The notes beneath the pieces were generated by a model. The model saw only the letters and a program-made list of their open reading frames with translations. It had not been told where the DNA came from and searched no databases. Both the position numbers and the translations under genes were made by a program. From Flavobacteriaceae bacterium GSB9 (GTDB taxonomy: Bacteria > Bacteroidota > Bacteroidia > Flavobacteriales > Flavobacteriaceae), in the NCBI GenBank assembly GCA_022749295.1, contig CP062007.1:1488001-1552000 (forward strand): a DNA stretch of 64,000 nucleotides. Reading direction: 5' to 3'. How positions within the stretch are numbered: position 1 is the stretch's first letter; the number at the start of each line of letters is the position of its first letter. Of this stretch, positions 26,180 through 58,843 are shown piece by piece.

Positions 26180-26210
26180 TTGACTTTGTAAAAAATTTCG
26201 ACTATATTCG
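26180..26210 (+). promoter_or_regulatory. Promoter of module A (shared with 57243-57273)
   Basis: TTG (26180-26182) and TATATTCG (26203-26210) are separated by exactly 20 bases, a good match to the Bacteroidota promoter with TTCG in place of TTTG. The 20-base stretch at 26180-26199 is identical to 57243-57262. Similarity continues past the start site to a CTTAAAGTT motif in both leaders. Confidence 0.6.
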
Positions 26211-26275
26211 TTTAACAGTCGATATAGACCATTATAAAAGTCCATCTCTTAAAGTTGGCTGTAATTTAACAAAAT

Positions 26276-26776
26276 ATGAAAATTCTTATTTTACTATTAA
26301 TTTTTAGCATTTCAATTACTTATTCCCAAACAGCGGAATATGGAAAATTGACTCATAAATCCGAATATGAAATTTATCTAACAAAAACTGGAGATACATT
26401 AAAAGTTGGAGATACTTTGACTATTGGTATTCCTTTATCCGATTTAGGATTCACATACATTTCTCAAGGTGGACAAAGAGTTTCAAATACATTATCGGAC
26501 AAAAAAGTTGTTGTTGACAAGCTGAAAACATACGGAACCAAAAAAAGTGGATATAAAATTTATGCACAATTTAAAGGTTATGGATTACTTCCTGTGTTAA
26601 TTGATTATGACACAGCTCTAGAACTCGGCGAAATCAAAAATCCGAAAATAAAACTAACTAAAGAACAAGCGATTGCTAAATTAAAAGAAGCGAAAGAATT
26701 ATTAGATTTAGGAGTTATACCGCAAGCAGAATATGACAAATTAAAATCTGAATTAACACCGTTAATCCTGAATTAA
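26276..26776 (+). CDS. Exported hypothetical protein with SHOCT-like C-terminus
   Basis: 166 residues. The signal peptide (MKILILLLIFSISITYSQ) is cleaved near residue 18. The middle (about 25-120) is beta-rich with LTKTGDTLKVGDTLTIGIPLS and no family that I recognise. The last 35 residues (KEQAIAKLKEAKELLDLGVI followed by PQAEYDKLKSEL) match the SHOCT short helical domain, usually found at protein ends and thought to mediate oligomerisation. It stands alone between the CrtW-like gene and the guaB terminator, inside the cassette-like module A. Its periplasmic or surface function is unknown. Confidence 0.75.
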   Translation: MKILILLLIFSISITYSQTAEYGKLTHKSEYEIYLTKTGDTLKVGDTLTIGIPLSDLGFTYISQGGQRVSNTLSDKKVVVDKLKTYGTKKSGYKIYAQFKGYGLLPVLIDYDTALELGEIKNPKIKLTKEQAIAKLKEAKELLDLGVIPQAEYDKLKSELTPLILN

Positions 26777-26795
26777 AAAAACTATGCACAACACA

Positions 26796-26905
26796 GTATA
26801 TAAAAAATTGCTGGTTTCAGCTAAACTAAAGTTAGTTGCTCGTTTGCTAGCTTCTGATTTTCCTTCGGAAAATCCTCGCACACAAACACGCAACTTTTCA
26901 TATAC
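26796..26905. repeat. Long imperfect palindrome (attC-like)
   Basis: The outer arms GTATATAAAAAATTGC (26796-26811) and GCAACTTTTCATATAC (26890-26905) pair over 16 positions with two G-U-type exchanges. Inside lie the perfect hairpin GATTTTCC/GGAAAATC (26856-26863 with 26867-26874, loop TTC) and the palindrome AACTAA/TTAGTT (26824-26829 with 26832-26837). The nested, imperfect symmetry and the position just after a stop codon are what attC recombination sites look like, but such a fold could also serve as a transcript end. Confidence 0.6.
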
Positions 26906-26960
26906 AAACCATTAAACGAACAAAATTTTCAAAATATCCAATAAATAAAATACAAATAAC

Positions 26961-57242: not shown

Positions 57243-57273
57243 TTGACTTTGTAAAAAATTTCATCTACCTTCG
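57243..57273 (+). promoter_or_regulatory. Promoter of module B (shared with 26180-26210)
   Basis: TTG (57243-57245) and TACCTTCG (57266-57273) are exactly 20 bases apart. The first 20 bases, from TTG onwards, are identical to those at 26180-26199. The downstream leader also shares TTCGTTTAAC, a partly conserved GTATATAAGTCATTAAAA-like stretch, and CTTAAAGTT. Confidence 0.6.
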
Positions 57274-57333
57274 TTTAACGACGTATATAAGTCATTAAAA
57301 CGACACATATCCTTAAAGTTATCCTCAACAGCT

Positions 57334-58728
57334 ATGAGACTTAAATCTTTATTAATATTTTTTTGGCTAATAATCACCTCTAATCTCGGTGCTCAAAACT
57401 TGATTATTGAAGGTGGTTGGCTTATCCTACCCGATTCTACCCATGCAGTAAAAAATACAGGGCTCCAGATAATAGCAGGTAAGATTCATTCGATAGGCAC
57501 CGCAAGTAATGACAAGACTATCCCTCGAGTTAATTTAGGAGATGACGATTATGTACTCCCTGGCTTATTTGATCTACACGCGCATTTGAAAGTCGTTTAT
57601 GGAGACTTAGCAAAGGAAGATACTACCATTACCCCTTTACTCTATCTCGCAAATGGGATTACGACCATTTATACCTGCGGCGAGGTAGATCCAGATGCGG
57701 TGCTAGCATACAAGCGAAATGTGGCAAGAGGAACTTCGGTTGGGCCAAGAGTACTAAATTCAGGTCCCTATTTTGGTGATCAAGCACCAAATTGGAGAGA
57801 AGATTACACCGAATCAGATATTTATGCTATTGTTGATGAATGGGCTTCGAAGGGAGTCGATGGGTTCAAGGCACGAGACATCAGCGAAATGCATTTAAAA
57901 GCATTAATAGAAAGGGCTCATATGCATGACTTAACAGTCACCGGACATATTAGTCATATAAAATTCCCTGAAGTAAGTTCTGATATTGCGATTCCCATGG
58001 GTATCGATCGTCTTGAGCATTTTATTGGAGGTTCCGCACTGAAAAAAGAAGCAAGTGCCTATAGGGAAGTTGCAGATCTGGTATTATCAGATTCAAAAAT
58101 TGACAAAACAATAGATCTATTTATCGATCACAACATTTATTTCAACTCTACCCTATCAGTTATTGGAGGCTTTACAAAAAGTGAAGACCAATGGTTACAA
58201 TACTGGACAGACGAAAAGAAATACTGGTCACCATATGCTCAATCAATAGTTGAAGGTAATCCCGAGAGGTGGAGTCCAAAGAGACAGCAGTTTTATGATA
58301 AGAGTAAAGTGTTGTTAAAACGCTATTATGACCGTGGAGGTCTCATCTCTATGGGAACCGATGGACCCCTCGGTTTGGATTTCCTCTGGGTATTCAAGAC
58401 GCCTGGTTTTAATACTCATCGTGAAATGGCCATGATGTCAGAAATAGGCATTCCTAATCACGAAGTAGTTAAAATCGCAAGTTTAAATAGCGCAAAAGCT
58501 ATGAGAATAAGTGATAAACAAGGAAGCATAGCGGTGGGTAAATTTGGTGATCTTATGATTATTAAGGGCAATCCCCTAGATGATATTTACAATACACGTA
58601 ATGTCCATACAGTAATAAAACATGGAAAAGTCTACGACACGAAAGAATTATTAAAATCATGTGAAGGAAAATTGGGTCCATTAAGCGAAGAGTCATGGTT
58701 TAAAAACAAAGAGGATAACCAACACTAA
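57334..58728 (+). CDS. Exported amidohydrolase family protein
   Basis: 464 residues. The signal peptide (RLKSLLIFFWLIITSNLGAQ) ends near residue 21. A metal-dependent hydrolase of the amidohydrolase superfamily follows: VLPGLFDLHAHLKV near residue 76 (HxH), Lys in GVDGFKARD near residue 181 as possible bridging carbamate, His in VTGHISHI near residue 205, HFIGGS near 230, and the catalytic Asp in SMGTDGPLG near residue 352. The C-terminal beta-sandwich shows KFGDLMIIKGNPLDDI. Relatives include imidazolonepropionase-like and prolidase-like hydrolases; the substrate is unknown. It is isolated in the opposite direction to valS, with a leader shared with the gene at 26276-26776, suggesting that it arrived by transfer. 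Confidence 0.87.
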   Translation: MRLKSLLIFFWLIITSNLGAQNLIIEGGWLILPDSTHAVKNTGLQIIAGKIHSIGTASNDKTIPRVNLGDDDYVLPGLFDLHAHLKVVYGDLAKEDTTITPLLYLANGITTIYTCGEVDPDAVLAYKRNVARGTSVGPRVLNSGPYFGDQAPNWREDYTESDIYAIVDEWASKGVDGFKARDISEMHLKALIERAHMHDLTVTGHISHIKFPEVSSDIAIPMGIDRLEHFIGGSALKKEASAYREVADLVLSDSKIDKTIDLFIDHNIYFNSTLSVIGGFTKSEDQWLQYWTDEKKYWSPYAQSIVEGNPERWSPKRQQFYDKSKVLLKRYYDRGGLISMGTDGPLGLDFLWVFKTPGFNTHREMAMMSEIGIPNHEVVKIASLNSAKAMRISDKQGSIAVGKFGDLMIIKGNPLDDIYNTRNVHTVIKHGKVYDTKELLKSCEGKLGPLSEESWFKNKEDNQH

Positions 58729-58729
58729 A

Positions 58730-58816
58730 ATGAATATGCGAACAGAGCTATTTGAAAGTGTAATGCAAAAAGAAAACTTCGGTGCATCTAGCAACTGGGA
58801 CGTATACTCATTTTAG
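58730..58816 (+). pseudogene. Possible gene fragment or 28-residue ORF
   Basis: A frame from ATG 58730 to TAG 58814-58816 encodes 28 residues (starting MNMRTELFESVMQKENFGAS) right after the amidohydrolase stop. It has a protein-like composition but no hydrophobic segment and is very short. It may be the head of a gene truncated at the right boundary of module B, or chance. Confidence 0.2.
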
Positions 58817-58843
58817 TTGAGCGTTAAACGAACACTCGCTCAA
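58817..58843. repeat. Hairpin at module B right end
   Basis: TTGAGCG (58817-58823) pairs perfectly with CGCTCAA (58837-58843) around a 13-base loop that contains most of the boundary motif. It lies between the convergent amidohydrolase and valS stops. It lacks a T run, so it is not a standard terminator. Confidence 0.45.

Follow-up and report, generated by a model that had tools for sequence, protein, structure and literature searches.

Integron-type cassettes in putative promoter-attI docking sites dispersed through a Flavobacteriaceae genome

Two gene modules and the site that frames them

The window analysed here, a 64,000-nucleotide stretch of the Flavobacteriaceae bacterium GSB9 genome (contig CP062007.1, positions 1,488,001 to 1,552,000), contains two single genes that lie between the same leader and the same right-end motif: module A (26180-26920) and module B (57243-58832; Table 1). 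The amidohydrolase that the original prediction read in module B matches PF01979. The SHOCT label that it gave to the module A protein is unconfirmed: this protein has no Pfam match at E 0.001, and its SHOCT-like C-terminus is discernible only by eye. PADLOC returned no match for either window protein.

Table 1. Features of the two modules (positions in the window) and of the duplicated platform segment (positions in its loci)
Feature	Position	Strand	Basis or remark
Predicted promoter of docking unit A, TTG-N20-TATATTCG	26180..26210	+	sequence; conserved positions over 56 copies
Left half of docking site A: outer arm TTCGTTTAAC and attI-like inner hairpin, end ...CTTAAAG|	26207..26254	+	alignment of 24 rejoined sites, pair counts
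Inserted cassette A	26255..26911	+	G|TT boundary from empty-site comparison
Cassette gene A: 166-aa exported protein, SHOCT-like C-terminus by eye	26276..26776	+	
attC of cassette A, bottom-strand fold	26784..26911	+	covariance model R1, fold z -3.4
Right arm of docking site A, TTAAACGAA	26912..26920	+	complementary to 26207-26216
Predicted promoter of docking unit B	57243..57273	+	leader pattern, conserved positions
Left half of docking site B: TTCGTTTAAC arm and GTATAT...ATATCC hairpin, end CCTTAAAG|	57270..57318	+	
Inserted cassette B	57319..58823	+	start pairs with R'' box; swapped at valS locus in relatives
Cassette gene B: exported amidohydrolase (PF01979)	57334..58728	+	
attC-like end of cassette B, CTAAAATGAATATGCG...CGTATACTCATTTTAG stem	58711..58823	+	bottom-strand fold z -3.7
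Right arm of docking site B, TTAAACGAA	58824..58832	+	
Shared platform segment	L125:7249-8833; L126 7703-9288		L126 copy on reverse strand; genome 2.19 Mb and 3.11 Mb

The leaders that begin at 26180 and 57243 have 20 identical bases in common, TTGACTTTGTAAAAAATTTC, and this 20-mer has two matches in the window at ≤3 mismatches, against 0.07 expected from shuffling. Both leaders continue with the TTG-N20-TAnnTTCG spacing, then TTCGTTTAAC and then CTTAAAGTT; TTAAACGAA is found at both right ends. The boundary 10-mer by itself shows just a mild excess in the window (18 matches at ≤1 mismatch, versus a mean of 10.8). A 37-nt composite of the leader pattern occurs in 8-9 copies in the 3.63-Mb genome (one contig), in which a reversed-pattern control had 0 matches; the leader is therefore not restricted to the two places at which it was noticed. 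The same pattern is present in 15 of 198 relatives (control, 0), at up to 20 copies per genome. Thus the sequences themselves, the shuffling and the genome-wide count all bear out the proposal that two segments have a common leader, spacing and motifs.

Four copies of this unit are empty: L014, at 1,567,207 in this genome, and L085, L086 and L089 in the related genome G046. In L014 the leader runs through CCTTGAAG|TTAAACGAAC uninterrupted; in the empty copies the promoter is followed by TTCGTTTAAC and a hairpin, of which GGATATAAGTCATTAAAACGACGCATATCC is one example, and then, after a few nucleotides, directly by GTTAAACGAAC. The 29 other copies are occupied: a segment of ~0.5-3 kb sits exactly before the TTAAACGAA arm, inserted exactly at G|TTAAAC, and the copy closes at (G/A)|TTAAACGAA or a near variant, the closing arm being unrecognisable in several docked inserts. 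Since the halves are joined in the empty copies, we regard the left and right halves as a single site that is split by the insert, and the 'inverted boundary motifs' of the original prediction as the two arms of a recipient-site hairpin that insertion has parted. The idea that the cassettes carry their own promoter has to be revised in the same way: the cassette boundary excludes both promoter and leader, which are kept in empty sites and are common to sites that hold different cassettes.

When 24 docking sites were rejoined in silico, the hairpin was retained, with 94% standard pairs and 20 cells with changes on both sides; its covariation score exceeded all 500 shuffles and all slid registers. 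The outer arms also co-vary in some copies (TTCGCTTAAC with GTTAAGCGAA), though they are 0.7-1 kb apart. Flank conservation outside the unit is absent left of -2 and right of about +20. The docking site is a compact element of ~90 bp that stays in place, with the leader as its left half: a predicted flavobacterial promoter and an attI-like hairpin, bounded by the TTCGTTTAAC/GTTAAACGAA arms. The -33 TTG is presumably a flavobacterial promoter element. In the first 31 bases, the positions conserved over 56 copies match such a promoter (TTG, TAnnTTCG), the flavobacterial -7 consensus being TAnnTTTG (PMC9723704), and the docking-site leader probably works as one.

Two further observations concern the variety of these sites. 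A sequence of 20-22 nt like TGTGCTGAACTTGTTTCAGTA, or a relative of it, lies inside the hairpin loops of L097, L098, L099, L104, L109, L111 and L114, which come from different genomes. In G046 three docking units, two filled and one empty, are arranged in tandem (L089:5898-8640, reverse strand) with a near-identical spacer of ~175 bp, which points to local duplication of the docking site.

Cassettes, arrays and the array-head integrase

TTRN5 opens the docked inserts, and their last ~130 nt are a conserved segment that contains a long stem. For about 23 of the 29 docked cassettes, an N5YAAC (R'') box where this segment starts, mostly 128-133 nt before the insert end, is complementary to the opening eight or nine bases of the same cassette. 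Compensatory changes affect 11 of 17 stem pairs (22 attC), and folding of the bottom strand is much more stable than that of its shuffles (z -3.4 to -4.2; Table 1). The base before the insertion core at right ends is G in 30 of 33 cases and A in the other 3, with TT next in nearly all; this agrees with the suggestion of G|TTRRRY core sites, module A being one of the A|TT cases. The insert ends are therefore attC sites, and docked cassettes overall display the R''/L''/L'/R' hairpin, the G|TTRRRY insertion and the pairing of start and R'' box. The attC ends and the R'' pairing also uphold the view that these single genes, unrelated yet framed alike, belong to integron-type cassettes. No similarity was found among the docked inserts, nor any close homologue of a docked cassette among the arrays read. 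By eye, the docked cassettes of L087, L096, L097 and L098 have a defence flavour: they encode caspase-like, Fic, AAA ATPase with RloB-like, and methylase with endonuclease proteins.

The two window cassettes differ in character. The attC of module A scores 95.5 bits (E 6.8e-21) with covariance model R1, which was built from attC of this and related genomes. Unlike most cassettes, module A has a start, TTGGCTGTA, without complementarity to its R'' box, ATGCACAAC; because of this mismatch, and of its A|TT right core in place of G|TT, module A may be a fused, decayed or locked cassette. The start of module B, TTATCCTC, is complementary to its R'' box, GAGGATAA, at 58711-58718. Model R1 misses the module B end, so we consider it a probable diverged type of attC; an end of this type is also found in the L011 cassette.

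The covariance model finds 127 attC in this genome, mostly in three arrays: the first begins at 3.57 Mb and continues across the contig end as far as 10 kb, the second lies at 3.08-3.11 Mb and the third at 2.19 Mb. The few dispersed attC include those of module A and other docking units. The tyrosine recombinase that one would look for elsewhere in the genome is present: each array is headed by one, of 305 or 375 aa, that is encoded in the same direction as the array. Beside each array-head integrase is a small divergent gene for a zinc-finger-like protein (CLSCSKELVGRTDKKFCDAQCRS...; for example L125:7400-7804 (-) and L127:6962-7336 (+)); the L125 protein has no Pfam or NCBIfam match, and it is possible that these proteins are regulators or accessory factors. 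Two platforms share a 1.59-kb segment at 98.7% identity that includes the zinc-finger-like ORF, the integrase and the array junction (Table 1), and it seems that the platform itself has been duplicated or is mobile. Both of these platforms immediately follow a tRNA gene, Leu-like in one case and Phe-like in the other.

The integrase of the largest array, like many integrases of relatives, is followed by a palindrome of 20-28 bp, then a few bases, then G|TTR: a likely attI. The palindrome with G|TT recurs behind about 18 integrases, and is far weaker behind the two 305-aa integrases here than in relatives. In about 18 of 30 relatives' loci, with short flanks, an attC lies downstream of the integrase and always on its strand; the linkage is seen in Winogradskyella ursingii, Seonamhaeicola aphaedonensis, Aequorivita sinensis and Algibacter onchidii. 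Integrase, likely attI and array, the constituents of an integron platform, are thus found together at the three arrays here and in about 18 of the 30 relatives. Four attC-rich genomes (G061, G073, G056 and G021) have no close integrase match: either their integrases are more distant, or their arrays have lost them. The docking hairpin has the same layout as the platform attI (GGATATAAG...ATATCC / GGATATA...TATCC, 5-6 nt, G|TT), and on that account we interpret it as a candidate promoter-attI site standing alone; the likeness is one of design, short of proof.

The array-head integrases contain PF13495 and PF00589. Their scores against TIGR02249 are 205.8 and 201.8 bits, each in two pieces and below the 265-bit cut-off, because the IntI-specific I2 insert is missing (alignment to 2A3V); that insert has been called essential for integron function (PMC8138268). 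No classical integron integrase, scoring above the TIGR02249 cut-off, was found in this genome or in any of the 198 relatives, a set without a known-positive genome in which sensitivity rests on the family's own cut-off. GLR and HxLRH are spaced 89-90 residues apart throughout the family, as against 131-132 in true IntI and 94-96 in XerC and XerD of this genome. In the phylogenetic tree, which took in only three IntI sequences, the family falls into a clade centred on, and mainly composed of, Bacteroidota (96/93), apart from XerC/XerD; IntI is separate (100/99). The catalytic R, K, H/R, H and Y columns are conserved. A model of a Winogradskyella homologue (mean pLDDT 85.5, pTM 0.61) was compared, over residues 102-375, with known structures: Z was 24.6 for XerA (5hxy) and 22.2 for IntI4 (3.1 Å over 266 residues). 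By its position the enzyme would be an integron integrase, yet I2, TIGR02249 and the tree all place it outside IntI; it would catalyse attC x attI recombination.

The 375-aa integrases have an N-terminal domain of ~75-100 aa (L177:9995-10300 and homologues), modelled as beta-beta-alpha-beta-beta-alpha. It gave sub-threshold matches to the DNA-annealing domain HARP (PF07443) in two relatives only, and the structure search covered this region poorly; the domain might take the place of I2 in recognition of hairpin DNA.

Exchange at fixed sites and competing explanations

Comparison of flanks indicates that docking sites stay in place as their contents change. The valS locus that holds module B has different inserts in G000, G001 and G002 and in another genus, G072: cassettes are exchanged at a fixed site, rather than diverging gradually. 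The L011 locus is common to all three species of the genus, two docking loci are common to G001 and G002, and several are orthologous between G046, G002, G072, G063 and G038, in every case with different inserts; the proteins compared at orthologous sites have no mutual similarity. The L014 locus, empty here, contains ~6 kb with at least 3 attC in G063. The L015 locus adjoins a tRNA gene; it is without a docking site in three other genera, and in G001 its site holds another insert. Module A is without a clean orthologous comparison, since among 16 relatives searched at the guaB locus only G051 has the leader, without hairpin or insert, and G001 and G002 are rearranged there.

Docking sites tend to accompany the integrase, which 12 of 15 docking-positive genomes possess, compared with 35 of the family's other 105 (Fisher p 8e-4, ignoring phylogeny). 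G021 has docking sites and no integrase past E 1e-45. Among 395 genomes drawn across the phylum, docking sites were found in two, both Flavobacteriaceae, and in none outside that family. The suggestion of a Bacteroidota-specific class looks right.

We propose, with a probability of roughly 0.8, that modules A and B are integron-type cassettes in dispersed promoter-attI docking sites, served by an integrase without I2 that probably acts in trans. Cassettes would be kept in the three large arrays of the same genome, and the Xer/IntI-type integrase encoded at each array head would free them via folded attC strands. The integrase, probably in trans, would then recombine the folded bottom-strand attC with a docking site at G|TTAAAC, which would put the captured gene directly downstream of a ready-made promoter, so that it could be expressed without first place in an array. 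The repeated unit in its empty and occupied states, its exact boundary, the attC arrays and the orthologous swaps can be read directly from the genomes; the acting enzyme, the bottom-strand substrate and the use of the promoter are our interpretation of them. We also favour, with less assurance, a broader hypothesis of a distributed integron, in which the I2-less integrase would serve in trans a genome-wide network of docking sites that takes up, expresses and exchanges cassettes. We propose no mechanism for the origin and spread of the docking sites, and their multiplication is unexplained in this model.

Two other explanations each keep a small share of probability. The promoter-hairpin could be an unrelated MITE- or REP-like repeat that integrases hit by chance, as off-target insertion of the attG type with no dedicated function. 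Integrases do insert at non-classical attG sites, by the account of Loot et al. (2024) relayed in PMC12901181, and our units are indeed dispersed repeats whose own spread is unexplained. We judge this idea rather unlikely, given that the majority of copies are filled, and in each case at one and the same base; that the arms are complementary across the insert; that the inner hairpin has the platform attI layout; that conservation of the promoter falls precisely where it should; and that docking sites co-occur with the integrase. Nor do the units have the terminal inverted repeats of a MITE: conservation begins 27-29 bases outside the left arm and ends ~10 outside the right arm.

To much the same small degree, another recombinase, either host XerC/XerD or an unseen enzyme, might move cassettes into the docking sites. 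XerC and XerD are both present in this genome, and some genomes with attC or docking sites have no close integrase match; against this stand the location of the integrase at the array head with attI in many genera, its co-occurrence with docking sites, and a fold close to that of IntI4.

That cassettes carry their own promoter and leader, the whole module from leader to right motif being one mobile unit, would account for the occurrence of leader and right motif as a pair around each gene. We find this very hard to sustain: empty sites retain the promoter and both arms; beyond the leader, at AAAG|TT, lies the cassette start, which is complementary to the attC of the same cassette; at orthologous sites the gene is swapped behind a retained leader; and array cassettes run from attC to start without such a leader. 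Finally, ordinary genes with a common regulatory leader (a regulon or structured 5' UTR) would explain a conserved promoter and leader before unrelated genes, but the conserved right arm, empty sites, precise exchange and attC ends reduce this to a negligible prospect.

Relation to known integrons and recombinases

Integrons are thought to be rare in Bacteroidota. The findings above point to a family of that phylum with cassette stores of superintegron size and an I2-less enzyme, overlooked by the standard family model. The docking sites would represent a different answer to the expression of cassettes that are far from a single array promoter, namely many promoters; if the distributed integron is true, stored genes could be switched on at many chromosomal places simultaneously. 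Since some docked genes (restriction-modification, Fic, caspase-like, RloB-like) probably act in defence, as judged by eye, the system may be an important route of accessory-gene turnover. According to IntegronFinder 2.0 (PMC9024848), a complete integron in Bacteroidetes proper is present only in Salinibacter ruber. We found no report of Flavobacteriaceae superintegrons or dispersed attI sites in the open-access literature; an earlier description may exist.

In several respects the system resembles the sedentary chromosomal integrons of Vibrio: arrays of single-gene cassettes, a bottom-strand attC of ~130 nt, a cut at G|TTR, and an integrase with attI at the head. It differs from them in that the integrase is without I2, mostly has an extra N-terminal domain and is encoded in the same direction as the array, that attI in relatives is a short palindrome, and that many single cassettes reside in scattered, promoter-bearing sites. 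With XerA and XerH the integrase has in common the PF13495 and PF00589 core and the catalytic residue spacing of the XerA group; unlike them, it is tied to attC arrays in many genera, and not to dif. The docking sites lie outside the integron, as do attG sites (Loot et al. 2024, as cited in PMC12901181), which the same source describes as structurally divergent from classical att sites. As far as that account of attG extends, a docking site is unlike it in being one conserved repeat, with its own promoter, an att-like conserved hairpin and complementary arms. Promoters for cassettes away from Pc are also provided by the promoter-containing, gene-less cassettes of Vibrio superintegrons (PMC11014356); there the promoter is an array cassette, whereas here it appears to be part of a fixed recipient site. 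Taken as a whole, the system is best described, on present sequence evidence, as a probable integron variant with dispersed promoter-attI docking sites.
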